Assembly (NCBI GenBank): GCA_963971285.1
Contig: OZ020248.1
Coordinates: forward strand, 23,891,873 to 23,955,872
DNA: 64,000 bases
From: Astropecten irregularis
Taxonomy: Eukaryota > Echinodermata > Asteroidea > Paxillosida > Astropectinidae
Direction: 5' to 3'
This document shows, in pieces, positions 8,531 through 61,606 of this stretch; position 1 is the first letter of the stretch, and the number at the start of each line of letters is the position of its first letter. The notes under the pieces were generated by a model that searched no databases, had not been told where the DNA came from, and saw nothing but the letters and a program-made list of their open reading frames with translations. A program made the translations under genes and the position numbers.

Positions 8531-9189
8531 TTACTGTTATTAATTTTGGCCCTTTCGGTCGCCCATACGAATTCGACTTCTCAAATTACATGTCATGAAT
8601 GACACCTTATTTTTCCCATACTGAATTATTAGCTTTGTATGTAACCGTTCAGGGATAGAAACGTCAGATCCACGATCTTTGACCCGCCACCCGCCAGGCG
8701 ACATTAGCAGAGATGGAACACCATACAGGTACGTACCCAAAAGGTATAGGGACAGGGTGGGACAGGTAGGGCATGGCAATAGTACGAGTTATGAAATCAA
8801 TATGCAACATGGCGACTTTTGCTTTCTTTATGCTATTTTTGAATAAAAATGTTTCAAAATATTTCGAGTGCGGTGGTCTGTTTGCTAATTTCAGCTCTGC
8901 TAGTGATGGCAATAATTGGTTTCCTAATTCACGCTTCTTATTCACGGCATGTTATTGGGCTTAGAACAGACAAAGTAGGCCACCAGTTTGAGGTAGCTTT
9001 TGCAGTAGCCCGTTTGCATGGGCTAAATGTACAATACATGATTGGTAAAGGTTATAGGACTGCACTCATACTTTGTCTAATCCAGCATGTACATGGAATA
9101 ATAAACCTGTGAAAATTTGAGCTCAATTGGACATCTGGGTCACGAGAAAATAACGATAACCCGACTCGATTTTTCTTATAAAACATGAG

Positions 9190-9560
9190 GAATAGTTTAC
9201 TTTATGTTTGTTCCAAAAATCTTTCGGACGAACGATCTTTGGAAAAGACAGAAATACAGATTCATGGACACAAATATCAAGGACGATACAGTAATTTCAG
9301 TCCCATAGTATACGGTGCCCACTTTGTGAGGAAACAGTGAAAAACGGCCACAGTATTTCTTAAGTCTTTTATTTTTGATATTTTAAAAGATCAAAAAGAT
9401 ATTCGGTCGTTGTTTTACTCATTTCTGGATAAATACACCATTTCAGGCGGAACAAATTTTACGGTATGTTTCTACCAGCACCATCTTCATACCCTGTAAG
9501 TTATACGTAAATCTGTGAACATTTCTGTTTGGTTTCTTACCAAATTATGATACTACCTGT
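9190..9560. mobile_element. TTAA-type MITE family 1 copy (decayed)
   Basis: The segment carries the internal family-1 words (AAATACAGATTCATGGACAC, CAGTATTTCTTAAGTCTTTT, CATTTCAGGCGG) and ends in ACCAAATTATGATACTACCT. The left inverted end is eroded. Boundaries are approximate. Confidence 0.55.
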
Positions 9561-11244
9561 AGGAAAATAAAATAAATTGTTGCTGAATTTGGTCCTTGGA
9601 TATAGTCGTTGTTATCTAAAACAAAAATGGTCACTCGAGTCGGCCATTGGTAATGGCAAGTCAATACTGCATTGCCGCGTCTATAATTTGACTCTTTCGG
9701 CTGACTGATGATGACCGATTTTTGATGCCGCAAAAAATTATTGGAACGTGCGGAGGCACTCAAAAAAGGACGTGTACAATAACAACTATGGGGATGGCAT
9801 TATTGATTTGACACACTTATTTTGTTTTTAGTAACGTTTTACACCACATCATTATAATTTAATTCATAGCTGTTTAAGAAAGATTCTGTTACTGAATTTT
9901 GCCCTTGGATATGGTCGTTGTTAAAAAAAAAGTATCATGAATACTAATTATTCATTATGGCCGAATTAAAAAATCCGATTATTTCATTTGGTCTTTGTCA
10001 ACGGCAAACCGAAAACGTATTGCCGCGTCAACCATTTTTTAATATTTAAAAATTTTTCTGCCGAATAAAGACCGACTTTTGATGTCGGGGGGAAATTTTT
10101 CAAACAAATGGCGGCACGCATAAAAAGGACGTGTAAAATCACCACCATGGGGATGGTAGTATTGATTTGGCACACTGGCACGGTGTCCATAGAAACAAAC
10201 AACCATATTTTCCTTTACTTTCCACTTTGGTGACGAACGCCGACACGATGTCAATTTCACGCATCAATCTCAAAATCAATTGGACGCCACTTATCTAGTA
10301 TCACAGTGCTGGCAGGCCGAGTTATAAATTATTATTTTGGTAAATTTTACCATGCCTCCGAATGCAAGATATGATTTTGCATGAGAATATAAATTTTAAA
10401 AGAGATACTTAAGCCTTATTGCCTTATTTGACCTTTAATTTTGGTCAAAATGATCTCGACACTTGAGGCTTATCTTAAGAATAAGTTATTCGAAGATTGG
10501 AACGTGGTCATTTTGTGTTTGAGGTTTGCTACGTATAGGAAAAGGTAAATGCTGACTTTCAGAAGATAGAAGTTTCATCTTGATTCATGGAGTAGGCCCT
10601 ATCGTTCTTGTGCTTTGTAACTTGTTTTTCCCGAGAAATGAATTAAATACTAAATAAATACTACTTTGCATCTCACACTTAAGCTCACACCGGGTACCCT
10701 ATACACATCACAAAAGTATTTAACAAACAAACAGATTTTCTCATCGATTCATCCTGAACATAAACGTTCAAGTGAAAACCACCAAAGAGCCACCTCTCGC
10801 CTGTTCAACTATAGAAGATTAACGCGTAATTTTGGTTATATGACGTCACGGCACATGGAGGCGAAAAACAGAACATTGTATCGGCTATCACTTTTTTACG
10901 CTATGAACAAATTAGGTTAGGGTCAAACATGGAGGAAAAAATAGCAGATTCTCATGACCATTCAACTCGATCGAAGCGATTGTCTAAACCCCCCCCCCCC
11001 CCAAAAAAAAAGCAACTTCCAGTCTATTGACATTTTCATTATGAAACCTTATTGTAGGTCTTCCCGACCAATTCTTATACTGCTAACATGTGGGTTTGTA
11101 AGAAGGAGTAGAATGCCTCATTCAAACCAAGTGGTTTGTTTCTATTTTCCCCCTCTCCCCCTTTTATTGGGCAAACTTCACCCCAAAGCTAAGACCACAC
11201 ACAATATTGTGGTTCAAAAACATGGTATCTATCTCCATTTTAGG

Positions 11245-11622
11245 TTGTATCATACTTTGGTAAGAGACCAAAACAGAAATGTTCACAGATTTACGTATAA
11301 CCTACAGGGTATGAAGATGGTGCTGGTAGAAACATGCTGTTAAAAGTTTTCCGCCTGAAATGGTGTATTTATCAAGAAATTTGTAAAACAACGACCGAAA
11401 ATCTTTTTGATCTTTTAAAAAATCAAAAATAAAAGACAAAACACTTAAGAAATACTGTGGCCGGTTTTCGCTGTTTTCTCAAAAAGTGGGCAACGTATGG
11501 GACTGAAATTTTCACAGATTACTTTTACTGTATCTTTCTTGATATGTTTGCCCACGAATCTGTATTTCTTTGACAAAAACCAAAGTATGATACTATACTT
11601 TTACTACCTTTAAAAAAAAGTC
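11245..11622. mobile_element. TTAA-type MITE family 1 copy inside the A1 duplication
   Basis: The inverted ends ATCATACTTTGGTAAG and CCAAAGTATGATACTA are visible, with family-1 interior. The partner copy is at 33565-33932, so insertion preceded the A1/A2 duplication. The right end has a small internal duplication near 11590-11610. Confidence 0.65.
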
Positions 11623-13218
11623 GCATTTCAGAGCATCTAAAAACGGAGCATGCTATTTTTTTCATTATTTTGTTGGTACTTCAGATATTTTGTCGGTATT
11701 TTATTTAATGACATTCAACCTCGAAATATTTGGGGGATGATAATACACGCAATCCCCGACCTCAAAGAATTGGGGGGGGGGGGATATATCCCCATCCCCC
11801 TGGGAAGCCCATACTTGCTGCCAATGGGCAAGGCCTTGTTTGGTATGTATTTCAATAGGATAATGCCAGTATCAAATGAGATTGATGATTAAGCTTTATG
11901 GTCAAGTTTGCCCAATAAATGGGGAGAGGTAGAAAATAGAAACAGACCATACACCGTTGGTTTGGATAAACCAGGAGTCATTCAGTCACAAAGAATATGC
12001 ATAAAACATGTATAATACATGGTTACTATAATCAACCGTTAATATTTCAAACTGCTTCTTTAAAACATTGACCCCTTGGGAACTTAAATGATAATAAAAC
12101 AATACAAATTCAGCAAGTATCGTGGAATAGAAACGCAAGATTTATAATGACGGTCAAAATAATGTGCATGTGCCCCCACCAAAGTGTTAAAGCCCTCCAA
12201 GTACAAACTCCAGTGGTTTATTTGTTACTCTGACCATTCTAGATGATCCAGTTTGGTATGAATTCCTTTCAAATGTATTAAAAAATAATTTACAAAATGT
12301 TATATCTATTTTCTTAGCATATAACTCAATGACAGCCTTAAGGTAATTTGTGAAACAATTTTCAAATGTCCAGCGATATTGCGAAGAAGGAATAATTTCC
12401 CCCAGCTATTCTTTTTTCTAGAAGACCAATGTCTCATCTCAACAATATATGGTATTTTTTGAAAATTGGAGCACTGCAATGAGGCGGTTATGAGCTGTTA
12501 AAAAGTGGTATTTTTTTCACACTTAGAATAAGTGAAAAAAGCCCCTATTTCAAATAGGCCTAAATGGTATAACCCAGTCACATACCTAGTTATGATTTGT
12601 ACACATTAAATGCAAGCTTTAAGGACCAACCTATCCACATTTTTTAACAAAATTTATTTGGTGTACATTTTGTAGTTGTAACACGACCTTGAAAATTGCT
12701 AAATTTCACCTATACAAAGTTGGGAAAATGGCGAAAAATGCCTTAAATGGTAATTTGGCTGTTGCTTTGGCAACGAAGTAATTTTTCAAAAAATACATCC
12801 ATATTTGTTAGTTTCGGGCTAAGGTCAATCAAATATAAAAGTATAAAGGAAATCCATTTTTTGGTCATGGCCAACATTTTTCAAGATATCTTTGATATTT
12901 ACAGTCCCTTACTCTTAAGGTTTTCTTTGAATGATTTGATGTGATTAATGAGAAATGACTTTATCATAGACCCCAAAAAGATATTCAAAACTATATAGGA
13001 ACTTATTTAAACAAATCTAACGACATTCACGTCGATAAAATTATCGAACCGTTGAACTACAACGATGGATGGCAATAATTTACACGTTAGCTCAACACAG
13101 CCAAACATTGCACATTGTATGATGGACGAATTATTATTATTATTATTATTATTAAGAATTTCTTTATTCAGGATAAAAGATTTCGAATCAGGGAGAACAA
13201 AAAGAAACGATAACTCAC

Positions 13219-13306
13219 CCGTCTGCATTTTGCCTGGCGTTGTCATCAGCAGCAAAGCGAGAACCACCACCCAGCATGGAGACATGATTCCAAGATGTAA
13301 CATCAT
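13219..13306 (-). CDS. A1: orphan signal-peptide first exon of the lectin family
   Basis: The exon starts at a double ATG, encodes about 29 residues with the hydrophobic core VVVLALLLMTTPG, and ends ATG CAG ACG G before a GTGAGT donor (phase 1). It is the same 88-base exon as in A2, B1 and B2. Downstream on the minus strand, duplicated intron sequence continues to 8726 and then runs into the 6.5-kb insertion. No CTLD, stalk or PAN exon is found between 13218 and 1. It could be an orphan promoter plus leader left by an incomplete duplication, or it could splice to exons beyond the left edge. The neighbouring core promoter is intact by similarity. Confidence 0.65.
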
Positions 13307-13700
13307 TCCCAACCAGGTGGCTTGAAAACGAAGCCAGAAGGGGCTTACTGTTTCTCGTCCTCAACGCCAGTAACTTCAAAGCTCCTATAAATCTGACGGG
13401 TTTCTCGTTTGGTAAATTAAACTTAGTGAAATATTGAAAATTGAAATTGCAACTGTAATGTTTCAGCACAAATTCGATTAATAATCAGTCTCGTGATTGA
13501 TACAAGAGTATATCGCGCTGACTGTTCCTTATCGACACGCAAACCGTTCTCTAGTGCAACACAGACAACCACTCTACACAAAATAGAAATGGATACTGTA
13601 GCACAGGTGACGATTGCTCGGAGTAGTGTTGCGTGTAATCGGTCACTATGACGTATGCCAATTGGAGCGCCCGCCTTCTTGTCTTCTCGCGAAAATATAA
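13307..13700 (-). promoter_or_regulatory. A1 upstream region, conserved core of lectin promoters
   Basis: Read on the minus strand, this matches the A2 upstream block almost base for base: CCAATTGG at 13658-13665, an ACGTCA half-site next to it, GTGCTACAGTATCC, TTGTGTAGAGTGGTTGTCTG and GAACGGTTTGCGTGTCGATA. The block from GTGCTACAGTATCC inward is also shared with B1 and B2. A CTATTTTG motif could act as a weak TATA element. The transcription start is not determined. Confidence 0.45.
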
Positions 13701-13756
13701 AATTGCAGCCACGCTTAAAGGTAGCATAAATAGGTAGTATTTTTCTATTTACATGT

Positions 13757-13795: not shown

Positions 13796-13799
13796 TTTG

Positions 13800-15285: not shown

Positions 15286-15546
15286 TGGCATAATTGGAAT
15301 TTGGAAGATCGCCGACAAAAGGTTCGTCACGGTTGACAAGCTGCATTACCCGTAGATGTCGTTGTAAATGGGTTGCCCAAGAACAATGCTTTTGCGTGCA
15401 TTGGGTCAGCAAAAATCGTCGTTATAGCCGGATTCGCCTAATCTAATGGAATAACTAAATTATCTCTCCATAGCAATGTGCACAAATTGATTGCTAATTC
15501 CGGGTTGTCGTTATCGCCGAGCTCGTTATAACGGGAGTCGATTGTA

Positions 15547-16064
15547 CAGTGTGTCCCAACAAAAACCCGATACCCATTTTCAAAAAAATATGAGAAGAAG
15601 TTGTAAGGATTCAGCTATTTGATTTTTAGCCTATTGCATTTACTATCTCATTGGGTAAATTCTGACCAAATTTCAATGCAATCCATTCATGCATTACCGA
15701 GCAATTACTGATTGTCTTGAAAAGTCCATTTTGCTACCATTACAAATGAGTGACAGTTGTGGTCATCTTAGTGGTGATCTGCGTGTAGTGAATGTGGGCG
15801 GCCACAATGAGGGGAGATTTACAGATCACAACTAAGAATGTTAAGATGACCACCATTGGCACTCAATTGTAATGGTAACAAAATGGACTTTTCCAGACAA
15901 TCAGTAATTGCTCAGTGATGCATGAATGGATTGCCTTGAAATTTCATCAGAACATGGCCTGGGAGATATTGAATGAGTTAGACTAAAAATAAAATACCTA
16001 CAAACATACAATTTCTTGTCATAATTTTTTGAAAATGACTATCGTTTTTGTTTGGGACACACTG
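15547..16064. mobile_element. Mariner-like foldback MITE, 518 bp, TA target
   Basis: The ends are inverted repeats CAGTGTGTCCCAACAAAAAC and GTTTTTGTTTGGGACACACTG, each flanked by TA (15545-15546 and 16065-16066), the Tc1/mariner target. The two halves are inverted over most of their length (for example GGACTTTTCCAGACAATCAG against CTGATTGTCTTGAAAAGTCC), so the whole element would fold into one long hairpin. There is no transposase frame. Confidence 0.8.
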
Positions 16065-16079
16065 TATAGTGTTAAAGTG

Positions 16080-16772: not shown

Positions 16773-17444
16773 TACGTTGTTGGGTGGCGTGCGGTGGTGG
16801 GCAACGTTGAGTTTTGTACACACGAGGTATATACGTATATCACGTCCACAGGGAGTGTACATGTATACAAAACCCATGTGCCACCGCAAAATTAACACCA
16901 AGCAACTGTTTTGTCACCGTACCGTTCTGTTTGTTTAGGTTTCCGAATAAATATTCGGGAAGGCTGTCCAAAATCTTTGACTGAAAACGCCTGGAACTGC
17001 GCGCCCGCGCCGTAACAAAATTCCCCACAATTTCGTTTGAACTTTTCCATATACATGTACATGTACCTGTATCCCGCAATGCAGATTGCATGCATTGTCC
17101 CGCAGTACCAGTACAAATTAATCTAGTACAGCACTGTAATGTATTTTGGCACATAATTTTATTTCACTTCTAACATCGATAATCAAAAATAAATCACGAA
17201 GTAAATATAATGATATTTTTTTTTTGATAATTAAACAATAATAATGTGATTTAAAAACAAATATCAATTAAGAATAAATAATATGGTGATTTGTTTTCTT
17301 GTAGGCCCTATGTGGGACCATAATAATTTACAACTCTTTTTTTCAGGCAAATTATTTCCGTAATTATGATTGTTACCCATTTAAAAGTGACGCATTGGCA
17401 TTCTGGTGCTTATACACCTTCTTTATTACCATAGAATAATGATG

Positions 17445-18745
17445 ACATTGAAAAGGAGACTTAAAATGATTTGTCTTGCCAAAGCTAGTACGGTTGAATG
17501 AACTGTGATGTGACGTCATACAAAAGTCTTTATATTCATCGTTCTCATAGGATAAGTTAATTCAATTCTTATTGCTTTTAATAACTTCGGACCGAAACCC
17601 ACAGAAATTGAAAAAAAAACCCAAAACACAGTTATACAGTGCCACAACCTAATTTTAGGGGATAAGATCCACGTTGGTACAGCGTTACTGTCTCGTCTCT
17701 TCACAATAGCCACTGAAGTTATTTAGTTTCATGGTCTACTGAAAGTGTTGTTCTGGTAACTTGATCTTCCCGAAAAATGAACTAAATACTAACAAATACT
17801 TTACTTACAGTCATTTATACTTAATACGAGTTGGAACCATAATCGAGTCATCATTTTATCCCCATGACTCCATCATGGGCTTTCACAATGCTGCTCATAC
17901 ACACTAGCTTCTTATCTCAATTCATGGTGTCTAGGCCTGCATCCTTCATTCCTTGCTAATCATTGACAACGACATTAATAACTGATATACATGTACAGTT
18001 TACAATATCACAGCAAAACGATATCACAGCAAAAAATATACATTTAAATTGAAAATATTATTTAAAACAAGGATCACAAGCTGTTAATTTTATGACACCG
18101 AGCTAATAAAAGAGTGCACACTTAAATGGCAAATATAAATATACACGCAATAACCTAATACTTTAAATTTGTTATTAACTAAATTGTATTGTAATTTATA
18201 TTTGTTTTTTTATTTAATTGATTCAATTAGTCTGGAGTGCCTCTTTGACAGGAACCATTTCTTTTGGGCAATCCCTCAGGAGGGATTTTTAATTTATTAA
18301 TGAAGTAGTTATTTCGTTCTCCTGGTCTACTACAGTGTTGTTCTGATAACTTGTTCTTTCCGAGAAATAAAATAAACACTAACAGATATTACTGACATTA
18401 ATACTTAATACTCTCACTGTAAAAGTGCAGACCAGTAAATAAATTCCCATAGGCTCCCACGCAAACTGGCCAATTAAAAAAAAATATTAAAAATACTCAG
18501 AAGTTTCTGAGGCAATCGACCGAGTACGGCAAAATAAAGGTGAAAACTTCAATTTTCATTTTCTTTTCAATTTTCTATAGGTTAACCGATACCTTTTTGC
18601 CGAAAAGTACATTCAAAGAAAAATACCCCTAAAACGGCCGAATTGACCGGTACCAGACCAAAAATAGTACCCCTCCACTACAGGGCAAAAATAAAGCGAG
18701 TTTAGGGCCTGCTTTCATCCAAACGGCTCAAAGGTGAAAGTCCAA
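17445..18745. repeat. Tandem duplication, unit 1 (~1.3 kb)
   Basis: Unit 1 is repeated directly at 18750-20085 at high identity. Shared landmarks are TGACGTCATACAAAAGTC, AACTTCGGACCGAAACCCAC, AAGATCCACGTTGGTACAGC and GAACCATTTCTTTTGGGC. The 65-codon minus-strand frame in each unit is conserved only because the DNA is duplicated; it has no recognised domain. Confidence 0.85.
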
Positions 18746-18749
18746 GGTG

Positions 18750-20085
18750 ATATTGAAAAGCAGACTTAAAAGTTAATTGTCTCGCCAAAGCTACCACGGT
18801 TGAATGAACTGTGATGTGACGTCATACAAAAGTCTTTATATTCATCATTCTCATGGGATAAGTAAATTCAATTCTTATTGCTTTTAATAACTTCGGACCG
18901 AAACCCACAGAAATTGAAAAACAAAACAAAAACACAGTTATACAGTGCCACAACCTAATTTTAGGGGATAAGATCCACGTTGGTACAGCGTTACTGTCTC
19001 GTCTCTTCACAATAGCCACTGTAGTTATTTCGTTTCATGGTCTATAAGTGTTGTTCTGGTAACTTGATCTTCCCGAGAAATGAACTAAATACTAACAAAT
19101 ACTTTACTTACAGTCATTTATACTTAATACGAGTTGGAACCATAATCGAGTCATCATTTTATCCTCATGACTCCATCATGGGCTTTCACAATGCTGCTCA
19201 TACACACTGGCTTCTTATCTCAATTCATGGTGTCTATGCCTGCATCCTTCATTCCTTGCTAATCACAGTGACTGTACATTAATAACTGATATATAGTAGT
19301 ACAGTTGAGTTTACAATATCACAGCAAAACGATATCACAGCAAAAATTAACATTTAAATTAAAAATATTATTTAAAACAAGGATCACAAGCTGTTAATTT
19401 TATGACACCGAGCTAATAAAAGAGTGCACACTTTAATGACAAATATAAATATACACGCAATAACCTAATACTTTGAATTTATTATTAATTAAATTAAATT
19501 GTAATTCATATTTGTTTTTTTTATTTAATTGATTCAATTAGTCTGGAGTGCCTCTTTGACAGGAACCATTTCTTTTGGGCAATCCCTCAGGAGCTGATTG
19601 GATTTTTTATTTATTAATGAAGTACAATGTAGTTATTTCGTTTTTCTGGTCTACTGCAGTATTGTTCTGATCATAGGCCTAGGCCTACTTGTTTTTTCCG
19701 AGAAATGAAATAAATACTTACAGACATTACTGATATTAATACTTAATACTCTCACCGTAAGAGTGCAGACCAGTAAATAAATTCCTATAGGCTCCCACGC
19801 AAACTGGCCAATTAAAAAAAAATATAAAAAATACTCAGAAGTTTCTGAGGCAATCGACCGATACGGCAAAATAAAGCTGAAAACTTTTTCAATTTTCATT
19901 TTCTTTTAAATTTTCTATAGGTTAACCGATACCTTTTTGCAGAAAAGTACATTCAAAGAAAAATACCCCTAAAACGGCCAAATTGACCGGTACCAGACCA
20001 AAAATAGTACCCCTCCACTACAGGGCAAAAATAGAGCGAATTTAGGGTCTGCTTTCATCCAAACGGCTCAAAGGTGAAAGTCCAA
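18750..20085. repeat. Tandem duplication, unit 2 (~1.3 kb)
   Basis: This is the second unit of the direct duplication starting at 17445, offset by about 1306 bases. It differs by small indels and substitutions. Both units end in the GGTGAAAGTCCAA block. Confidence 0.85.
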
Positions 20086-20689: not shown

Positions 20690-21130
20690 TTAAGTGATTT
20701 TTGTACGTTATAGTTTTGAAGTAATTAAAAGTAGGCCCTATTGTGCTGCTTACTGATGTGTATAAGTGACAAATCAGTATATAAGCTATGACCAAGCATT
20801 TACAACACTGTACTTCTATACGTCCTGAAAAACACAACGGCGAAATTGAAAATAGTGTGTAATAGATACAAACTGACTACATAAGTAAAAACATAAAGAC
20901 AATCACACATTCAATCGAATATTTAACCAATGAACCAATACACCATTTACAATATTAAAGTTAACGCAAGCAATTATATTAAGGTCAATTATTTACAAAG
21001 CATTGGAGTTAGCAAGTTAGATCCAAAACGTCAGGCCCTCAGCTAATTCCGGGCATTTGATACAATTATTTCAGGTCATTTTTGAGGTATGATAAGCAGT
21101 TTGCAACAGTTAATTATCTCTCTTGTATTA
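20690..21130 (-). repeat. A2 downstream block matching B1 downstream DNA
   Basis: On the minus strand, words such as TTTTCAGGACGTATAGAAGT, TGCTTGGTCAT and CAGTAAGCAGCACAA match the region 50850-51130 downstream of B1 and its tandem copy at 51420-51600. This places the outer limit of the A2/B1 inverted duplication at about 20.7 kb and 51.1 kb. Confidence 0.6.
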
Positions 21131-21360
21131 TCACTAAGCAATTAATAAGTGAGGCATTTGGCCAACAGAGGAAAAAGCATTTTTAGCCGGCAAAGCAAAA
21201 CAAAAAAAAGTCACGGCGAAAAAATTATAATGTGCCGAAAATGAAATAAAGGCGACTTCAATGGGGCTGGAAAATGATAGGTAAACACGCCAAGTCAGCA
21301 TCCATGGGGATCGAATGTAGAGCAAACTCTACCCTACTCCCACACGCCACAGTGCCTTAA

Positions 21361-21789
21361 ATGTTTACTGTAATCAAAACTCATACAAGTTAAATACATC
21401 TGTATTGTTATAAAACTCAACCTGTCTATCATTGTTTGTGCTAAAAATATTGTATTATAGAAAATAGAGGTATATTTTACACCCGTATATTCAACACCCC
21501 ACTTTTCGCGACGAAAAACTTTGCTTACGTCACATGCAGAACGCCACGCAATATACTGTGGTGCGAGCCTGTACTAGTTCTGTAGGTGACGTCACTCACT
21601 ATTGTTGCGTGGATCGGTTCCAAGGAAGACTTTTTTTCGGGGGCGGTACATGGATATATGCACATGTACTGATTTTGTAACTTGTGGTCAAAAATAAGCA
21701 CTTACATAACTTTATGTAGTCATTAATTATGCATTAAGCAATAATTTTAAAGCACTTTCACCCCTTCCTATTTTGATTACAGTAAACCT
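21361..21789. mobile_element. TTAA-flanked MITE, family 2 (GTTTACTGTAATCAAAA)
   Basis: The inverted ends ATGTTTACTGTAATCAAAA and TTTTGATTACAGTAAACCT are bounded by TTAA at 21357-21360 and 21790-21793, again the piggyBac-type target. The interior has TTTCGCGACGAAAAAC and GTTGCGTGGATCGGTTCCAA. Relatives lie at 39288-39755 and 55310-55640. Confidence 0.75.
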
Positions 21790-22061
21790 TTAAGTTCCAT
21801 AGAGTCTCCTGTATGGATACTGACTCAGGGCGTGTCGAAAGACGGTCACGCCTTTAAGTGGTTGCACCAAACGAGTTTACTTGAAATGATCGCCAAATAC
21901 GGGGTCCGTAGCATAACCTAATTATTAAAAATAGCAGAAAATAACTTAATTCTATTAAGAGTAAATGTTCACATAACTTCACCATTACTAGTCTATCACA
22001 CTTGAAACCAATTCTTCTGTAAAGGCTGTAAATGCGCGCGACCAAGTCAAATGAAATGGGT

Positions 22062-22321
22062 TTACAATGCCATGTAAAACACCTCACTTCCAGCTCTGTG
22101 CTGCACGGTGTTAATATTGAGAACCTTGCTGCACAGCACGCAGTTATCCTCGTTCCCAGAAGTCACGAAGCCGAAGCTCTGGCAGCCAGCCTCCATAGAG
22201 CAGTCCCGTGCACACTGGACTCTGGTCTTGACACGGTAGCTGGGAGTAAGTACGTCTTCTGGACGACAGGTGGCGTCCGTAGAGAGAAACACGAACTTAC
22301 CGGGTCTTCCTCTGAAAGATT
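22062..22321 (-). CDS. A2 terminal exon: PAN/apple-like domain
   Basis: The exon follows the acceptor TTTAACACCAG and encodes about 86 residues to TAA. Six cysteines are spaced TCR, QCARDCS, GCQSFGF, NCVLCS. The CARDC...GCQSFGF core is typical of PAN/apple domains, which mediate protein or carbohydrate contacts. The B1 copy differs at only a few residues (V/M, P/T and an extra terminal Leu here). Antisense open frames over it are shadows. Confidence 0.85.
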
Positions 22322-47600: not shown

Positions 47601-50255
47601 TATGAAATTGGCCCCAGCACAGCCACCAGAGGCCTGCTAGCGAGTCACCGGTATAGTGCATGCTGACACAGTGGTAGACAAGAGTATCATGTCTTGGCTT
47701 ACCGAACTCTCTCCTTCTTCGGTCAGGTTGTCGTGATATCTTTCCGGGCGCCTTCGGAAATCCCTCCAAGCCCGGGGTGTGTTACGCCAGTGACAGCTAC
47801 CAGATGCGCAACATTGAAGGCGCCCTGAGTTTCTGCCGGTCTCTCCCCAATGGTTCCTGGTCGGTGGCTGACATCGAGGACGCCGAGGAGAATCTGTTCC
47901 TTGAAGTGTGGAACAGAGACAATTTCCCGTAAGTTTATTTTATTCAGAAACAGAAACACAAATGTGACTTATTCAATACTTTTTTACAATAAGTAAGACT
48001 TGCGGTGAAACCATGTATAAAACTCTTTTTGGAAGATGTGTGGTCCTGAAAAGGACCCATGAGAGTGCATGGATTCTCAATACTTTTATTACCCAGCATA
48101 AATCAGCAGTAAAACAAAGGAGATATCCATCAGGCTCGTTCCCTTATCTGCTTCATTCATGCAGGATCTTCTACTTGATTGGTCTATACCTTTACGTGCT
48201 TAATTTGTTACAATCCTACATACATGACTGCCTTCTTGCTTGATAACCCGTTCCCCTGCACTATTGACTGCTTGCTCCAATTGATGCTTTGTTGCTTGGT
48301 TTAACTTCTAGCTTAATCGTTTCGCTCAATTCTTGATTGCCAATGCCTTGATCTTTGGCCTGGTTATAACACACTGGGGCCAATTTCATAGAGCTGCTTA
48401 AGCACAAAATTAGCTTAAGCATGAAAAGTCTTCCTTAATCAAACAGATAACCAACCAATTTCCATATGATGTATACTGCTTTTGAATTGTATTCGCCCAT
48501 TGTATGCTAAGCATAACATTCACAAAGAGAAACTTGATCTTTACATCTACAGCAAGAATGACGGCTACTGGATCGGGCAAAATGATCGGGAGCAAGAAGG
48601 CGATTATCGGTATACCTCCAGCGGGCAGTGTACGGTGTATCTCAACTGGGCTGGTGGCTACCCCAAAGAGACAGGATTGAGAAATTGTCTTATCATGAAA
48701 AAAATTTCAAATGGACGATTTGCTAACCAAGAGTGCAGCGATACCGCCTTCACGCTGTGTAAATTCGGAATGGGTGGGTAATTATTTCTTCACAATTTCC
48801 AGACCTGTGAGAAAACAAGAGATCTGCATTATCATGTATAAAACATGTATTGTAATATAAAATTTGATTTTGATGCAAAACAAAGTTATCAAAACAAAAT
48901 AGAAGAACAATTAATCTTGAGAGAAATTTAAGCAGCCGCAATGTTTAAAAGTAATATCGTACTTTGGTATTTGACAAAGAAATGCAGATTCATTTGTAAA
49001 AACTATGTGAAATTGTAACTCCCATACGGTGACCTCTTTTTAAGAAAACAGTGACAAACACGCACATGCAGTATTTAAAAAAATAATTTTCACCGCTCTT
49101 TTTGATTTTTTAAAAGAGATCTGTGAAAATTTCTGTTTTGGCATGCTACCAAAGTATGATAATACCTTTAACATTCAGTGTAACTGCATGCGTTGTGTGG
49201 ATCAGATTAATATGTTTCATGTTATTTTTTTTTTCGTTATCGTAACTGTTATCTCACCCGCATTGTTGCTCTAGTCTTGCTACCGACATATCGGGAGAAA
49301 TTACAAGTTCAATCTTACCGAATTATTTTTTAACAGACACAGAGCATTCTTGCCCAGGAGCCTTAGGAGAGAATTCCACTGTAAAGAATTCCACTTTAAA
49401 GAATTCCACAGAAGAGAATTCCACTGAAGAGAATTTCATTAAAGAGAATTCCACTGAAAAGAATTCCACTGAAGAGAATTCCACTGAAGAGAATTTCACT
49501 GATGAGAATTCCACTGATGAGAATTCAACTGAAGAGAATTCAACTAAAGAGAATTCCACTGAAGAGAATTCAACTAAAGAGAATTCAACTGAAGAGAATT
49601 CCACTAAAGAGAATTCAACTGACGCTTCTGAAGGTGTGTATTGTAGGACATGGTTCTGCTGATATATGATTATTGGATGTCTTAATTTTCTAATTTTCGG
49701 ATCTCTTAATGAAGTTGTCAGTTTCTTTTTTCGTTTACATTTTTTGGTATTTTACTGATCAAAACAAACTCTCTGACTGAAATAATTTGTGATTCTTCTA
49801 CTTTTTCTTTTCAAACGAACCTGCAGCGGATTTGTGTACCCAAAGTAAGTGAATAAAAATCATTTATGTCTAGTTTAACCATCTGTCTGAAATGTTCTAA
49901 ACCTGAACGAAAGTACGTTTACTCCTGATAAGAGGTCTGCATACAGTTGAAAGTTCACCTTGTAAATGATGATCATTGGTTTTATACTTTAACACCAGAA
50001 TCTTTCAGAGGAAGACCCGGTAAATTCATGTTCCTCTCTACGGACGCCACCTGTCGCACAGAAGACGTACTTACTCCCAGCTACCGTGTCAAGACCAGAG
50101 TCCAGTGCGCACGGGACTGCTCTATGGAGGCTGGCTGCCAGAGCTTCGGCTTCGTGACCTCTGGGAACGAGGATAACTGCGTGCTGTGCAGCAAGGTTCT
50201 CAATATTAACACCGTGCAACATAGAGCTGGAAGTGAGGTGTTTTACATGGCATAA
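38518..50255 (+). CDS. B1: secreted 4xCTLD, Asn-Ser-Thr stalk, PAN-domain lectin
   Basis: Fourteen coding exons: 38518-38605, 42561-42762, 42868-43094, 43300-43365, 43494-43683, 44082-44305, 44809-45055, 46090-46328, 46841-46882, 47727-47928, 48553-48773, 49337-49633, 49827-49844, 49999-50255. They total 2520 bases, divisible by three (839 residues), with all phases consistent and GT donors throughout. Order: signal peptide, CTLD2-type, linker, CTLD3-type, CTLD4-type, linker, CTLD5-type, stalk with 17 repeat units, short linker, PAN. The first CTLD of A2 is missing: I scanned 38.6-42.5 kb and found only intron repeats. The phase-1 leader still joins the CTLD2 exon in frame. As in A2 there is no membrane anchor, so secretion is inferred. 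A consensus AATAAA lies 64 bases after the stop. Confidence 0.85.
39288..39755. mobile_element. TTAA-type MITE family 2 copy in B1 intron 1
   Basis: The left end AGGTGTCCTGTAATCAAAT follows TTAA (39284-39287). The right end reads CCAGTAAACCTTTCA, so its TTAA is mutated. Internal words (TGACGTCA, TTCGTCGCGAAAAGTGATG) match 21361-21789 in inverse orientation. Confidence 0.6.
40674..41000. mobile_element. TTAA MITE family 1 copy, right end lost
   Basis: TTTAAAGGTAGTATCATACTTTGG begins the copy and the interior follows the family to TTGATATTTTTACCCACGCA. The terminal inverted repeat on the right is missing. Confidence 0.6.
41372..41798. mobile_element. Mariner-like MITE, 427 bp, TA target
   Basis: CAGGGTGTCCCCCAAAAA and TTTTTTGGGGGACACCCTG are inverted ends with TA on both sides (41370-41371 and 41799-41800). 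The interior has inverted halves (TATGTGATACAGCTATG against CACATAGCTGAATC) but no transposase frame. Confidence 0.75.
42397..42540 (+). repeat. tRNA-derived SINE copy 2
   Basis: The GGCTGGATGGCTCAGTTTG head has a damaged B-box (GGTCCGAATCC). The tail is TTTCTTTGTTCACTTTTCAATGAC and AATCAGTCAGTTTCC. It lies just before the first CTLD exon of B1. Confidence 0.65.
42561..43094 (+). CDS. B1 CTLD2-type (exons 42561-42762 and 42868-43094)
   Basis: The N-half is ECQDILPSAF...DLCRSLPNGSWSVVDIEDAE; the C-half has YWIGQNDREEEGDYRY, QCPVYLNW, YPK, KNC, FIDDDC and YTLCK. YPK replaces the QPN of the A2 counterpart, so the sugar-site ligands are lost. The same YPK occurs in B1 CTLD5. Confidence 0.85.
43300..43365 (+). 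CDS. B1 66-base linker exon
   Basis: This phase 1-1 exon encodes DPEPTRDPLTRC and DGSTLPPEVT. It matches the A2 linker (28200-28265) in length with one main change (I to L). Confidence 0.8.
43494..44305 (+). CDS. B1 CTLD3-type (exons 43494-43683 and 44082-44305)
   Basis: The N-half has ACSDLRADAFG, PGVCYLV and EYCQGEGWSLVDVEDATE; the C-half has YYWVGQNDREIEGTWKF, FLHW, QPD, ENC and VACKK. QPD replaces the A2 EPD, but the W-N-D position reads FNI, so the last calcium ligand is missing. A SINE fragment lies between the halves. Confidence 0.85.
43963..44050 (+). repeat. tRNA-derived SINE copy 3, internally deleted
   Basis: The GGCTGGATGGCTCAGTGGGT head runs to GAGCGCCTTTAAGGG and then jumps directly to the AGTCAGTTTCCCTCGTGG tail, so the B-box is gone. 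Confidence 0.6.
44809..46328 (+). CDS. B1 CTLD4-type (exons 44809-45055 and 46090-46328)
   Basis: The N-half has APPKETPVGPC, TLKPGVCYLV and CQGLGDNIGWDVADIEDA; the C-half has VWIGQNDMKTENVWRY, YLTW, QPD, ENC, FED and YLCKL. The Q-P-D and E ligands are kept and the N-D pair reads E-D, so galactose-type binding remains plausible. The 1-kb intron holds a Harbinger-like MITE and a LINE remnant. Confidence 0.85.
45636..45785. mobile_element. Harbinger-like MITE
   Basis: GATCGATTTTACCAAACTC on the left mirrors GGGATTGGTGAAATCGACCCC on the right, with palindromic TACGATGGGTTATCC words inside. It shares these with the element end at 1435-1612. Confidence 0.55.
45785..46023 (-). pseudogene. LINE reverse-transcriptase C-terminal remnant (RTE/craTA-like)
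   Basis: On the minus strand, 46021 downward reads NARRWKWI, then IPRTALHWTHEGRRKIGQPK, ITWRRSVEEEMKSI, hits a stop and shifts frame to RTAQNRPEWRTFVAALHAIG. The order LHW-EGRRK-G-PK-TWRR...W..-LCAIG-like is typical of the C-terminal tail of endonuclease/reverse-transcriptase retroelements. It is a short dead 3' fragment in the CTLD4 intron of B1. Confidence 0.65.
46841..46882 (+). CDS. B1 42-base linker exon
   Basis: The exon follows TTTTGCAG and encodes EAVSSCPQIEETPD, ending before GTAAGT. Length and phase are the same as A2 25358-25399. Confidence 0.8.
47386..47615. mobile_element. MITE of the GGCCAATTTCATAAA family, copy 2
   Basis: The left end GGGGCCAATTTCATAAAACTG and the interior match 2667-2907 closely. 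The right end is shortened (TTTGTACTATGAAATTGGCCCC). Confidence 0.7.
47727..48773 (+). CDS. B1 CTLD5-type (exons 47727-47928 and 48553-48773)
   Basis: The N-half has GCRDIFPGAF, GVCYASDSYQ and LSFCRSLPNGSW; the C-half has YWIGQNDREQEGDYRY, QCTVYLNW, YPK, RNC, FANQEC and TLCKF. The loop Cys lost in A2 CTLD5 is present here, so the fold is intact, but YPK and RNC lack the usual calcium ligands. Confidence 0.85.
48376..48480. mobile_element. Half-copy of the GGCCAATTTCATAAA MITE family
   Basis: GGGGCCAATTTCATAGAGCTG, CTTAAGCACAAAATTAGC and the TTTCCATATGATGTATACTG end match the subfamily of 37320-37426 (inverse orientation). It lies just upstream of the B1 CTLD5 C-half exon. Confidence 0.55.
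48948..49172. mobile_element. TTAA MITE family 1 copy, internally deleted
   Basis: TTTAAAAGTAATATCGTACTTTGG and CCAAAGTATGATAATACCTTTA are diverged family-1 ends around a shortened interior. Confidence 0.6.
49337..49633 (+). CDS. B1 stalk exon: 17 units of a 15-base Asn-Ser-Thr repeat
   Basis: After DTEHSCPGALG the exon is a coding minisatellite of E/K-E-N-S-T units. Sixteen of the 17 units keep an N-x-S/T sequon (15 NST, one NFT); one reads NFI. Sixteen N-glycans in about 85 residues would make a stiff, bulky spacer. The unit is in frame (15 bases), so copy-number change alters stalk length without a frameshift. A2 has eight units. Confidence 0.9.
49827..49844 (+). CDS. B1 18-base microexon
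   Basis: CTGCAG then GCGG-type phase 1 gives A-D-L-C-T-Q before GTAAGT. It is needed to keep phase between the stalk and PAN exons and is conserved in A2 (30 bases). Confidence 0.75.
49999..50255 (+). CDS. B1 terminal exon: PAN/apple-like domain
   Basis: The exon follows TTTAACACCAG and encodes SFRGRPGKF, TCR, QCARDCSMEAGCQSFGF and DNCVLCS to YMA and TAA. Six cysteines are in the PAN pattern. It is almost identical to the A2 exon, more so than most CTLD exon pairs. Confidence 0.85.
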
Positions 50256-50319
50256 AATCCATTTCATTTGACGTGGTCGCGAGCATTTACAGGAGAGATA
50301 GTTTTAAATGTGGTACAGT

Positions 50320-50325
50320 AATAAA
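50320..50325 (+). terminator. B1 polyadenylation signal AATAAA
   Basis: AATAAA lies 64 bases after the B1 stop codon in the first downstream block shared with A2. At the aligned A2 position (minus strand, about 21985) the sequence is AATGGT, so the signal is missing there. Confidence 0.6.
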
Positions 50326-50610
50326 TAATTAAATTATGTGTAAATTTTCTCTTAATAGAATTAAGTTATTTTGTGCGATTTCTAATAATCATGGTATGAA
50401 TTATCTTTTTCTTTGTTCACTTTTCAATTTCTTTAAATTCAGCCAGTTTCCTTTGTGGTTATTTAATGATTATATTAATTAAAAAGCCGTATCCTCTTTT
50501 TAGTGATCCCCCATGTACCGTTCTCGGGTTGCAGCATTGCTGCATGTATCGATGTAAATAATGATCTTTGGGATATGGTGGTGTGTGCGTAGTTTCATAC
50601 CACCAACGTA

Positions 50611-50755
50611 GGGCTGGATAGCTCAGTTGGTAGAGCGCCTGTACGATGTTCAAAATAATGGTCACCGGTTCGAATCCCGCTTCTGTCAATTTTGCCTTGT
50701 TCACTTTTCAATGACTTTAAAAATTCAGTCAGTTTTCCTTGTGGTTATTTGATGA
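50611..50755 (+). repeat. tRNA-derived SINE copy 4
   Basis: GGCTGGATAGCTCAGTTGGT and GGTTCGAATCC form intact A- and B-boxes, followed by the family tail TTCACTTTTCAATGAC. A solitary tail of the same family lies at 50405-50475. Confidence 0.7.
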
Positions 50756-51740
50756 AATATTCGATTGAATGTATTTTATTGGTTGTTTTATGCTCTCAGT
50801 AATGTAGTCAGTCATTATTTTGTATCCCACTATTTTGAATTTTGATGTTGTGATTTTCAGTACGTATAGAAGTGCAATATTGTAATGTGCCTGGTCGTGT
50901 AGCCTTTAATGAACTATTAGTTGATTTATCAGTAAGCAGCACAAGAATGGCCTAATTTTCATTTCTTCAATTATATAACGTACTAAATTCGCTACTTTGC
51001 ACTTGTTATAATTATAAAAGTCATAATGCACGCTTACTAAGGACTATTAAGACTATAAGATTTGAAGACATATTCCAAAAAAAATTGAAACTGTACTATT
51101 ACAAACTATCTAGGAATCAATGGACGTAAAGCTTATAGTTTAAAACTGTACCATTGCTGTAGTGTGTCTTTTTCGTTTTACGGTGGAAGTATTCAATATC
51201 AATGTCTTAGTATTTTTTATAACATTATTTAATTCATTTCTCAAAATCACATTCAGTAGACCTGGAGAAAGACAAGTACAAGAACGACATAAACATCCAA
51301 TCAGTTGGTTTATTGGTTAATTAATTAGATGTTCGATTGAATGCTGCGTGTTGCCTTTGTGATTTTCGCACATTGTCAGTTTGTATCCGTTTCTCACGAG
51401 GCCTACTTCAAATTTCTCTGTTGTACTTTTCAGCACGTTTAGAAGTACAGTGATGTATCGTGCTTGGTCATGTATACATGTAGCCCACTTTTTTGGTTCG
51501 TTATTTTTTACCAGTAAGCAGCACAATACTTGTTTATGATTGAAGAAAATATAATTATGTACTTTGCACATAATTAAAACAATCATATGTACGCTTACTG
51601 GAATATTAAGTCTGAAATTTGGAGACAAATTTAAAACAAACCATTGCACCATTGCAAACAAAGTTATGTACATCACTGAATTAGTATTAATTACATATAC
51701 AATTATTATGAAACCTTTGCAGATCCTTGTCACTTAATTA
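50755..51740. repeat. Diverged tandem duplication downstream of B1
   Basis: Blocks at 50755-51170 and 51320-51740 share CGATTGAATG, TTTTCAG(T/C)ACGT, TAGAAGT, GTAAGCAGCACAA, TACTTTGCAC and GCTTACT in the same order, about 570 bases apart. The A2 side has one copy (20690-21130). The frames across it are not convincing genes. Confidence 0.55.
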
Positions 51741-51886
51741 ATTTGAGGATTGAATGTAAATTTTTTTAAATAATATGCTTTATAAAAAGACTAATCCATG
51801 GCTTGCTTCAGAAACGTTGACATTATTTTCCAATCAACGACCATTATTGGTACCATTCAGTTTGTTCCTGTGCGTCCAAGTGACTT

Positions 51887-52391
51887 CAGGGGTGCGCTCC
51901 GCTTGCGCGAACGTTGCCACCGTTTGCCAACGTTTGCGAACAATTTCGGGTGGAACGACTTGTGCGCCGCTAACGTTGGCGGGTGTTAGCAACAGTCGGC
52001 GAACATATTTCTGAGATGTTCGCGAATGTTCGCGTGTCATTTAAAAATGGTCGATCTTTCCAAGATGGCAGAACGGTAAGCAGACGACGTAATTTTTTTG
52101 TGACGAAAGTAAAAACTGCAGTTTTTAAGAATGAAAATTTATCAAGTAGGCCTAGGCTACTTCACAAATTGCACCATAGATAATTGGTACTTAATGATAT
52201 GCTGCAGTACAAGTACTATCAGAAATTTCATCAATTATTTTAGACGCTGCAGGCATTCGACGCCATCTTGGTTACGACTGGACACCGCCATTTTACGGTT
52301 GTGTTCCACGCGCGCTCACAATCGGTTCCGGTTGTACGCAAACGTTGCCGCAAACGTTGAGACATGTTCGCGCAAGCGGAACGCACCCCAG
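51887..52391. mobile_element. TIR element, 505 bp (CAGGGGTGCGCTCCGCTTGC)
   Basis: The left end CAGGGGTGCGCTCCGCTTGC and the right end GCAAGCGGAACGCACCCCAG are inverted, continuing inward with GCGAACGTTG words. No matching target duplication is seen (AGTGACTT against TACGTAAT). It has no transposase frame. A hAT-like origin is possible from the CAGGGGTG start only. Confidence 0.6.
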
Positions 52392-52399
52392 TACGTAAT

Positions 52400-54560
52400 T
52401 GGTCAACAGAGGGCGCGTGCGTGAAGTGGTCAATAGAGGGCGCGTGTTTAACTCGCGCACTCTGCTGTTGACAAAAATGTGTCGACCAATTATGCCCATG
52501 GTCACTGGCGGCAGGTTCAAGCAATTTCGTGTTGCTGAATGATAAAGAAATTGCCGAATTATTTGACGGTGTTATATAAAACAAATAATAAATGTTTTCA
52601 TCCGTGCAATGGAAAGAATATTTGCATTCGTTAAAAAATGAAATATTTGTTCATATCGCCTACTTCTTGTTGAATAGAGCATTCATATTTCAACTCATAA
52701 TTATATAAATACCATTGCACTCATTGACATTCATTATTTGGATACTGTAATATTGCAATCGTGTGTCGTTAACGGATTTTCTTGATGATGAAAGTATTGA
52801 ATTAATTATTAACTTTTTTTTTAATTATTACACGCCTTTGTCATTAAAGTGTACGCTCAGTGTCATGCAATAAAACAGCGTGTGATTCGTGTAGTGATTT
52901 ATTACTTGTCATTCGGTTTGGACACCATAATTATTAGATCTCACAAGTGTATGAAATTTCCATAACGTTGTGCACATACTTTACTGATTACTTAACTGCT
53001 TTACTGGTTACATTTGTAAAAATCCTTCAAACCAATGAACTTGAAATTGACATAATTATGTTCATATCGAGAGCATTCTCTGTTTGTTTGGATTTTTTGG
53101 GGCTAATAAGAAACATTACTTTGTGTACTGTGTGGCAATCTGGATACCATACTTACCGCAGGGAAAACAGGAAAATTGGGGTATTGAAACTTCGTTTATT
53201 TTGTGATTTTTAACTTTGAGAAAGTCAAGAATGCTGTGATCAAAGTAATATTCCAACTTTGAAGAAAACATCATTTGAAATGTGGCCTTTTGTGTCATGC
53301 GGCTTTCGCCTTTAGTACTTTACGTGCCGACGTCAGGCACTGAGAGTGGACAGGGATTCACCCACAGTGACAATTATTTGACATTCTTGTGGTTTGCACG
53401 CTCTGCAATGCCTCTGGAATTTTCGGCCGAGATTCACAATTGAAATTCTTTTTGCGAGCTCATTAAGTCTGAGATACATTAAAGAAAAGGGCGGGGTTTC
53501 AGTCAGTGCACGTAGGTGACTAGTATAATATATGATGCAGTTTGTACACTCTACCGTGCCACACTGTTCAAGCGACTACAATAATTGAAACGTAATGTGA
53601 ATGAGAAGTATGGCGTCTTTTGGATAGCTCATGGATGCTAGTTAACACACTACGCACACGTACAATGAGAACAAGGAATGGTAAATGACTATTAAAGTAA
53701 TGAAATATATTGAAGAGGCTAACGTACATGCACGTGAATTCAATTAATGTGCATGGGGTAAAAAGTTAAGACAAGTTACCTTTAATACAATTCTATGAGC
53801 AATCTTGAATGTTTAACTATGAGGGCCATCACTTGTTAACAAACTCTGTGGAACCCACAGAGGGCGTTTTGAAAACATGGCTGCCGCTGCATTCGACGTT
53901 TATCAGTGTAGGTCTTACCAACAACAACCGTAAAACTCACGTTTCAGATATACTACTTCAGTATTACAGAGCTGAGATCCAAACCTATGGGGTTAGTGTG
54001 CTTTAGTCTTAAATAGGATTATTTCCAAACCCCCCATAATATTCCTCAAAATTCAAAGCCCTGTCCTCTTTCCACAAATTTAACATTAACCTTGCTAGCA
54101 TTGAAGAGGACATCACAACATAATTATTTAGAAGCCATGTCTGAAAATAATCCTTGAAAAACAAAAGATCGAATTTAGACTAAGCTTTAGACTCGGTAGA
54201 AATTTAAATGTTTTACATGACATGCCGATGTCAATAACACACCTTAATGATTTCTTCCCAATATCCATTTCACCGTTGTTCTTTTGCCATTATCGCTAAA
54301 TACAGCAGTATTTAAATGAAATATCCAACAGATCGTCTCGCGGTGATAGCATAATGATCTCCGCCCAATATACATCCCGCGGACGGTAAGACGGTTGAAC
54401 CAATTCAAGGCGTTTGTCTTAGATTCCCATTTGCTGATTTGCAAATTTTCTCAGACTGCGCGAGGTCGCTGTTCGCCTTGATACTGTACATGAACCTTAC
54501 TAAAGATAGTAAACAAAATACGAGGCAATATGCTAAACACTCTGGTAAAATTGTTGCGAG
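52400..54560. other. Intergenic DNA between B1 and B2, nothing recognised
   Basis: I see no splice-bounded exon with a known domain and no element ends. Short frames (up to 88 codons at 52947-53213) have no recognisable features and poor context. Confidence 0.4.
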
Positions 54561-55162: not shown

Positions 55163-55309
55163 ATGATGTTACATCTTGGAATCATGTCTCCACGCTGGGT
55201 GGTGGTTCTCGCTTTGCTGCTGATGGCAACGCCAGGCAAAATGCAGACCGGTGAGTTGTCTTTTTTTATTGTTCCCCTGATTCGTCCACCAAACAATATT
55301 TTATATAGA

Positions 55310-57928: not shown

Positions 57929-57929
57929 G

Positions 57930-60355: not shown

Positions 60356-60359
60356 AAGG

Positions 60360-60440
60360 TGCAGGAATAATAATAATAATAAAAATGCTTATATAGCGCT
60401 TTATACACAAGTCTCAAAGCGCTTGACACCATAGTAAAAA
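60360..60440 (-). repeat. Retroelement-like tail: (ATT)n with GCGCTTTATA hairpin
   Basis: On the minus strand, CAAGCGCTTTGAG and AAAGCGCTATATAAGC are followed by an (ATT)n run, an arrangement often seen at 3' ends of non-LTR/SINE-type repeats in marine invertebrates. No reverse-transcriptase frame is attached. Confidence 0.5.
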
Positions 60441-61606
60441 TAAGAACGATTAAAAATACAGAGCTAAAAGTACAGTATAAAATTAATAAATAAAATGATC
60501 ACGGTAAAACTAGAACCCCAAAAACTAGGAATTATAGGACAAGTTATTATAGATATTTCAGAGAATTAAACTACAACCAAACTTAGAAGGACAGGGCATA
60601 TAATACTAAAAAGAGTATGACTATACGACTAACATACAAAGATAATCCTATGGGAAAATGGTCTAAGTTAAAAATACTATAGGTAAAAGGCCAGGTAATA
60701 AGTTACACGAAATATTAATTTCAACATTATCTGTCTAAAAACATCTAATAAAAATTACATTAAAGATATTTCAACACTGTTTATAATAAACAATTTAAAC
60801 AATAATATTGAGGTGCCAGCATGGTAAAATTTGATTGTAAACTATTAAAAAATCTATCAAATAGAGTGCTTTTTCTTGTTCCCCGTAAAAGCTCACGACG
60901 CGAGGACAGACACTGCGGCTTATGAGGTTCTTTGACTAATGTACAATAGCTTGACTTATATGTTTTTTCTCCTTACCAGCGTCAAACAACGTTTACCCAG
61001 CGGTTTCTTGCACTGATATCCATGACAAAGCATTCGGCAATCAAACCCTCAAACCCGGAGTCTGTTACCTGGCTAGCAATACGATGGGAGTATTCCTTGA
61101 TGCTAGGACCTTCTGTCAGGGACTCGGAGACAACATAGGATGGGACGTCGCTGACATCGAAGATGCTGTAGAGCTTCAGCTCATCCAAGACGCAATACTT
61201 AGACTGGATGAAGCTGGTTCGTTGTAAGTATTGAACGGAATTCGTGTGCAATGAAAGTGTGCAATATTAAATACATGCATTCATCTTGCGAAATCCAGTA
61301 TTTCCACACTGGTAAGTCACAAACAATAGTAGTAACGCTGGTCCTAGGTCTTAGGTTGTAGGTCCTATACTCATCTTAATGTGTCAACTGAAAAACATTA
61401 CCTATCTCTTCAGGACTGCATGCAGATTTTGGATCGGCCAGAATGACATGAAGTTGTTCCGTTCGGGTTACGTACGCAGACACCTAAAGAAAGAACAGAA
61501 TTGTGTATTTCCCTTCTGTTATACTATACCACCATGTATAGATTCAAATCTCAAATTATCCGCTCAAAAAGAGCATTCGATTTCTTCGAATTCCGAGTTT
61601 ACTTAG

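Follow-up and report, generated by a model that had tools for sequence, protein, structure and literature searches.

How does a locus hold several copies of a lectin gene in opposite orientations, uniform in some exons and divergent in the loops that would bind ligands? The question is raised by a 64,000-nucleotide stretch of the sea star Astropecten irregularis genome (hereafter the window; C11:23891873-23955872, in an assembly of 475.7 Mb and 168 contigs), which carries genes for C-type lectin-like domains (CTLDs). Using the exons of one of these genes, A2, we searched the window and 80 kb on either side of it; negative positions lie to the left of the window. We read the locus as a small two-armed array within a large family of germline-encoded, probably secreted lectins with several CTLDs each, shaped by inversion, tandem duplication, gene conversion and divergence of loops, and give this reading a probability of roughly two in three.

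A two-armed array of five units

The window and its flanks contain five units: A0, A1 and A2 on the minus strand, followed by B1 and B2 on the plus strand, a 3 + 2 layout with one broken member. The original prediction, made from the window, described a palindrome-like locus of two complete genes back to back, each flanked by a broken copy. Its inverted diagonal, whose absence would have refuted it, is present. Self-alignment (expect value E <= 1e-10) identifies A2 and B1 as antiparallel paralogues, with collinear blocks at 20.7-29.6 kb against 42.5-51.0 kb and a further match between their leaders (34.6-35.0 and 38.2-38.6 kb):

20693-20937 / 50742-50993, inverted block of A2 and B1
21912-22815 / 49500-50398, inverted block of A2 and B1
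24753-25000 / 47715-47962, inverted block of A2 and B1
27851-28270 / 43295-43704, inverted block of A2 and B1
29379-29624 / 42527-42772, inverted block of A2 and B1
34605-35032 / 38229-38639, inverted block of A2 and B1, leader side

As predicted, homology between the two extends past the genes: the downstream DNA near 20.7 kb and that near 51.0 kb are 73% identical. Four leader cassettes, also predicted, lie in the window, two on each strand. The predicted match in exon order holds as collinearity but not exon for exon, B1 being without CTLD1. The word palindrome fits the inverted arms only loosely: the arms match as islands, mostly exon-sized and 70-94% identical, in place of continuous arms of high identity, while much of the introns is unmatched and blastn finds no inverted homology in the centre at about 35.1-38.2 kb.

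The flanks change the count. A1, predicted to be a leader only, has CTLD exons at -5998 to -21061 and an exon for a PAN-like domain at -21578 to -21903, all open and with splice sites. It had looked broken because the window edge cuts inside it; such an edge can produce a false broken gene. A fifth unit, A0, lies complete outside the window at -29.1 to -51.1 kb on the minus strand. Only B2 is broken, as had been proposed: its leader and first CTLD exon are intact, homology to the second CTLD exon ends at 61453, and no later exon appears up to 80 kb to the right (E <= 1e-3). By blastn, array DNA runs from -58.0 kb on the left, where it matches 13.8 kb, just upstream of the A1 leader, to 73.2 kb on the right. 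Outside these limits, within the fetched flanks, each of the best non-overlapping blastn rows (1e-20) is shorter than 400 bp, the size of dispersed repeats.

Gene anatomy

The common gene plan consists of a leader exon, five two-exon CTLDs (phases 1-2-1; exons N1 and C1 for CTLD1, and so on), a stalk exon, a short linker exon and a last exon with the PAN-like domain and the stop. A0, A1 and A2 encode 934, 914 and 935 amino acids, each with a signal peptide, five CTLDs, an N-glycosylation-repeat stalk and the PAN-like domain and with no internal stop; including B1, four of the five units have consistent splice phases and no internal stop. The A-arm features in the window are as follows:

34729-35032, minus, A2 promoter-side block of about 300 bp, common to the seven leaders compared
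34641-34728, minus, A2 leader exon; signal peptide by eye, phase-1 end, donor GTGAGT
30342-30961, minus, A2 CTLD1 (N1 30718-30961, C1 30342-30583); gene model and Pfam Lectin_C
28664-29590, minus, A2 CTLD2 (N2 29389-29590, C2 28664-28884); C2 donor GC, ATAG/GCGAGT; Lectin_C
27343-28064, minus, A2 CTLD3 (N3 27872-28064, C3 27343-27566); gene model and Lectin_C
25902-26712, minus, A2 CTLD4 (N4 26478-26712, C4 25902-26143); QPD, ENC and FND in the loop
22966-24988, minus, A2 CTLD5 (N5 24787-24988, C5 22966-23183); gene model and Lectin_C
22679-22819, minus, A2 stalk exon of 15-bp repeats; 8 N-X-S/T sequons
22475-22504, minus, A2 linker exon of 30 bp; gene model
22062-22387, minus, A2 last exon, PAN-like domain and stop; gene model and Pfam PAN_1
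13219-13306, minus, A1 leader exon; remaining A1 exons outside the window, to its left, at -5998 to -21903
8725-13727, minus, A1 leader, promoter side and part of intron 1; a direct repeat, in broken blocks, of 31208-35149

The Lectin_C profile (cut-off 22.6 bits) matches the spliced A2 protein in five stretches (167.1 bits), the leader-plus-CTLD part of B1 in four (135.2 bits) and A2 CTLD2 alone (37.9 bits), and scores above this curated cut-off place the domains in the C-type lectin-like family (Pfam PF00059). PAN_1 (cut-off 21.4 bits) matches the last exon alone at 24.1 bits in A2 and 22.3 in B1; within the whole A2 protein it scores 18.1 bits, below the cut-off. Inside A2, CTLD1 resembles CTLD4 and CTLD2 resembles CTLD5 (blocks of 74-88%), which suggests an internal duplication of CTLDs within the gene. 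The number of stalk sequons varies, at 8, 4, 8 and 16 in A0, A1, A2 and B1.

The A1 exons run from N1 at -6.0 kb through PAN at -21.9 kb, and we infer from order, strand and phase that they are joined to the A1 leader across a 19.2-kb intron. First introns of A0 and A2 measure 13.1 and 3.7 kb; leader and exon searches found no other leader between the A1 leader and the A1 exons. The leader search gave 29 matches, 7 of them at least 81% identical, and all 7 lie on the window's contig. On the promoter side of the seven leaders compared, mean pairwise identity is 0.78-0.97 in the bins adjacent to the ATG and 0.58-0.68 in the three farthest upstream. The GC donor of A2 CTLD2 (28658-28664, minus) corresponds to GT in A0; were it unused, read-through would stop the protein after CTLD2.

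The B arm comprises:

38229-38517, plus, B1 promoter-side block; self-alignment and leader comparison
38518-38605, plus, B1 leader exon; gene model
42561-43094, plus, B1 CTLD2 (N2 42561-42762, C2 42868-43094); gene model
43494-44305, plus, B1 CTLD3 (N3 43494-43683, C3 44082-44305); gene model
44809-46328, plus, B1 CTLD4 (N4 44809-45055, C4 46090-46328); gene model
47727-48773, plus, B1 CTLD5 (N5 47727-47928, C5 48553-48773); C5 mosaic-looking
49337-49633, plus, B1 stalk exon; 17 copies of the 15-bp unit, 16 sequons
49933-50255, plus, B1 last exon, PAN-like domain and stop
50759-53982, plus, B1 3' flank; repeated in order at 70022-73240, the B2 3' flank
55163-55250, plus, B2 leader exon; gene model
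60980-61223, plus, B2 N1 exon; open, with splice sites
61370-61453, plus, B2 C1 fragment

As built, B1 is an open frame of 819 amino acids with four CTLDs; since the modules have phase 1 in common, the lack of CTLD1 leaves the frame intact. This model omits a possible 18-nt linker exon that was noticed by eye. A search of B1 intron 1 for a CTLD1 remnant returned two matches at chance level (E 0.28 and 0.99). In B2 the leader end and the 3' flank (70.0-73.2 kb) survive and the body is gone: the 8.5 kb between C1 and the 3' flank hold no recognisable family exon, and a search for body exons within 61454-70100 gave one 41-bp match to B1 (E 1e-4), none to A1, and nothing at the protein level. The stretch that replaces the body contains open frames at 62103-64000 (minus), one of which is similar to a tyrosine recombinase, though its Phage_integrase score of 18.0 bits falls short of the 27.1 cut-off.

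Probable duplication history

A leader and promoter tree of the five units, with two leaders at C11:4.8 Mb as outgroup, separates A0, A1 and A2 from B1, B2 and the outgroup leaders with support of 100. The A units also share long intergenic stretches that are 77-94% identical. B1 and B2 group with support of only 64; their leader regions are 0.878 identical, against 0.829-0.870 between A and B, but the blastn blocks of the self-alignment give 82% against 80-87%. The leader tree alone leaves a tandem duplication in the B arm open. What favours one is the 3' flank: the 3.2 kb downstream of B1 recur beside B2 in eight blocks (70-83% identity, E 7e-20 to 6e-103), of which no more than a few hundred bases occur in the A arm. 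On these comparisons, an inversion most likely came first and was followed by tandem duplication in each arm.

Probable gene conversion and uniform exons

Two units that are not neighbours, A0 and A2, share a tract of near identity:

21164-28147, minus, 7-kb near-identity (conversion) tract with A0, A2 side; windowed identity

All 14 windows across the tract are 0.970-1.000 identical, against 0.906-0.963 in 11 flanking windows. The 53 substitutions that remain in it are unevenly spread: 13 fall in N5 and PAN together (528 bp; odds ratio 4.0, Fisher p 1e-4), 4 in N4 and 3 in N3. This excess is as expected if both exons were later overwritten from other copies.

Synonymous differences agree. We compared N5 plus PAN with the other exons (leader and stalk left out) in four of the six pairs. 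For A1-B1 the counts are 5/110 in N5 plus PAN and 104/311 elsewhere (p 7e-11); for A2-B1, 10/110 and 91/315 (p 1e-5); for A0-B1, 8/110 and 84/312 (p 7e-6); and for A1-A2, 10/112 and 97/410 (p 3e-4). The PAN exon alone, 326 bp long, carries sites for all three possible quartet groupings. Gene conversion between paralogues is well supported by these patterns.

Divergent ligand loops

The leader, N5 and PAN exons are uniform among paralogues and the ligand loops are divergent, with the boundary falling inside an exon. C exons vary little up to a VYLNW motif and much after it. For C1 to C5, variable columns number 7/36, 7/32, 10/35, 16/36 and 7/32 before the motif and 23/47, 28/43, 30/40, 23/44 and 28/42 after it (C1 from three sequences). 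In five of the six pairs, pooled nonsynonymous divergence (dN) is 0.32-0.46 in the loop against 0.09-0.12 in the framework, and pooled synonymous divergence (dS) is 0.42-0.87 against 0.28-0.37; in the sixth, the converted pair A0-A2, dN is 0.02 in the framework and 0.05 in the loop. One exon looks like a mosaic of two CTLD positions: B1 C5 starts like a C5, and its loop is closest to B1's own C2, with identities of 0.76, 0.69 and 0.84 to that exon in the last three windows against 0.34-0.59 to other C5 exons.

A model for the array

Each full gene is a series of phase-1 modules: a signal peptide, five two-exon CTLDs arranged alpha-beta-gamma-alpha-beta, a stalk of N-glycosylation repeats and a PAN-like domain. 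We propose that the A and B arms came to lie head to head through an inversion, that both arms then underwent tandem duplication, and that later losses took CTLD1 from B1 and the body from B2. Conversion between paralogues would keep the leader, N5 and PAN similar, together with much of the CTLD framework, while the loops after VYLNW would stay different or move between domains, as the C2-like loop of B1 C5 suggests. One scaffold would thereby carry four or five binding sites in a combination that differs from gene to gene. Parts of this history had been anticipated. Inverted duplication followed by tandem duplication of each arm accords with the A-arm tree and shared intergenic DNA and with the B-arm 3' flank repeat, and the gene conversion that it invoked is well supported, as by the A0/A2 tract. 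The picture of a locus prone to change was right in spirit; the counts of genes and broken copies in it were wrong.

A more ambitious version, which we hold only tentatively, pictures the family as a germline repertoire: conversion, acting across direct and inverted copies alike, would maintain a shared frame (leader, N5, CTLD scaffold and PAN), while loop cassettes of about 40 residues at the CTLD ends would escape it and swap between CTLD positions. If true, new combinations of four or five binding loops could arise without somatic change. The variable part here is a short bounded loop inside an exon, beside uniform parts, which offers a clean setting in which to ask whether conversion acts on one part of an exon and selection on another.

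Alternative explanations

Several observations weigh against our reading. Quartet sites are largely of one mind: 87 of 96 informative sites group A0 with A2 and A1 with B1, so most of the gene follows one history and overwritten stretches must be short; no more than nine sites conflict, although these cluster (12 switches where 16.7 are expected, p 0.005). Constraint on the DNA itself could explain why leader, N5 and PAN differ so little at synonymous sites, and the A0/A2 tract, known from one assembly, could result from misassembly. For the loops, pooled dN/dS is 0.53-1.17, not clearly above 1, and fits relaxed constraint as well as diversifying selection; the pooled counts do not support positive selection on the loops, and the predicted selection for diversity is suggested by their fast change and no more. 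The PAN assignment is weak, and a predicted model of the domain, with a predicted local distance difference test score (pLDDT) of 40, is unusable. One alternative is plain birth-and-death evolution without notable conversion, in which strong purifying selection, including at synonymous sites, evens out leader, N5 and PAN and the loops are simply less constrained; the quartet agreement, the loop ratios and a PAN core nearly invariant even in four copies from another contig, C14, all favour it. It has difficulty with a 7-kb tract that has sharp edges within colinear, more divergent DNA and includes introns, with three groupings inside one short exon and with the B1 C5 mosaic, and we consider it improbable.

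Two further alternatives concern the layout itself, and we give each very little credence. Allelic haplotypes placed head to head or in tandem by the assembler would explain the A0/A2 tract, the only part at allele-like identity, and the locus is indeed known from a single assembly. Usual heterozygosity, however, lies far below the pooled dS of 0.23-0.30 found in the five full-gene pairs other than A0-A2 (0.06), and intron lengths differ among units. The four-unit palindrome of two complete genes, each with a flanking broken copy, accommodates the inverted diagonal, the order of leaders and the likely tandem duplication in both arms, but not the complete A1, the further complete A0 or a centre without inverted homology; we reject it because the 80-kb flanks refute its unit count.

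Predicted function

In CTLDs, the calcium- and sugar-binding site is marked by EPN or QPD, followed by E-N-C and N-D ahead of the final cysteine. Against this motif, C4 of A0 and of A2 looks complete (QPD, ENC, FND). The triplet changes from paralogue to paralogue: other CTLDs of the array carry EPN (as in CTLD2 of A1), QPN, EPD, EPY, EPG, QPT and YPK, and the altered ones may reflect other specificities or none. The signal peptide and the lack of a visible anchor suggest a secreted protein, whose four or five CTLDs offer several possible binding sites.

Echinoderm CTLDs have several roles, and fast-changing secreted CTLDs occur also in non-immune settings. A role in the egg coat or sperm binding, in tube-foot or skin mucus, or in the skeletal matrix would suit a probably secreted multi-CTLD protein with a glycosylation-repeat stalk; it bears on function only and is compatible with the anatomy described here, and we regard it as a real but minority possibility. 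By analogy with other echinoderm families, as presented in excerpts of PMC8634487 and PMC13428168, microbe recognition or defence is the likeliest use.

Other features of the window and assembly

A dispersed repeat of about 350 bp (about 74-92% identical) occurs in both orientations at 7.4, 9.25, 11.24, 16.41, 33.57, 35.14 and 40.68 kb, in part at 57.4 kb, and in further copies in both flanks; copies flank the A2 leader on either side and lie in the first introns of A0 and A1. Downstream of A2 is a 1.3-kb tandem pair (17443-20085, 92% identical), with corresponding DNA downstream of A0 and A1. The window also holds a self-inverted repeat of about 520 bp at 15545-16066 (77% identical) and 19 copies of a 7-bp GTGGCGC unit at 2526-2658.

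Elsewhere in the assembly, contig C168 (16,335 bp) is a mitochondrial genome, with cox1 recognised by profile and the other protein genes by eye. Its order is cox1-R-nad4L-cox2-K-atp6-cox3, nad3, nad4, nad5, nad6, cytb; the minus strand carries nad1, nad2 and much of the tRNA cluster. We take this to be the sea-star order. Amphioxus and corals, considered as other possible hosts, carry GFP genes; a GFP-family search with no positive control gave no match, and the mitochondrial order settled the choice. Contig C131 (102,890 bp) carries, in the standard code, a set of cytochrome oxidase genes of bacterial type, and probably represents a bacterium associated with the host, or contamination.

Family context and comparison with known systems

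CTLD genes are abundant in this genome: a first look gave 1282 candidates, and all 150 of the 150 scored matched. The PAN exon has 41 matches, 34 of them at least 63% identical (6 on C11, 1 on C17 and 27 on C14). The main family cluster, C14:6694182-7693934, holds 26 PAN exons, three with a stop, in orientation blocks of +3, -9, +3, -4, +6 and -1. Because inverted copies are this common in the family, the two-armed layout is not special. The locus is ordinary in kind.

Among the best of 36 Protein Data Bank sequences matched by the A2 C5 exon are the PLA2 receptor, Endo180 (MRC2) and the mannose receptor, and the array genes share with the mannose-receptor type several CTLDs in a row in one polypeptide, with Lectin_C above cut-off. 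Members of that family have ricin-B and FN2 domains before the CTLDs and a C-terminal membrane anchor with a cytoplasmic tail. The full A2 protein, in contrast, matches only Lectin_C and PAN_1, with no ricin-B or FN2 match at E <= 0.01, and its frame stops just after the PAN-like domain, with no anchor seen in the gene models, although an alternative 3' exon is possible. The glycosylation-repeat stalk and PAN-like domain belong to the lectin array and not to the mannose receptors.

Expanded CTLD repertoires are described in marine invertebrates such as bivalves, in the excerpts of PMC10140915, and resemble the present family in having very many CTLD genes per genome; a text search of that paper found no mention of a PAN domain. 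Titles and abstract beginnings of the open-licence literature searched contained no description of a CTLD and PAN array in a sea star. In echinoderms, large germline families are regarded as substitutes for adaptive receptors (excerpts of PMC13428168). The sea urchin SpTransformer (185/333) genes are, in excerpts of PMC8634487, PMC1988830 and PMC5491942, a clustered duplicated family with some members in opposite orientation, a conserved first exon and a variable second one, whose evolution is discussed in terms of duplication, recombination and gene conversion. The sea star array is likewise a clustered, duplicated echinoderm family with inverted members, a resemblance confined to locus evolution. 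As those excerpts present them, SpTransformer genes have two exons, encode another kind of protein and are linked to short repeats, whereas the genes described here are 14-exon CTLD genes whose variability lies in defined loops.

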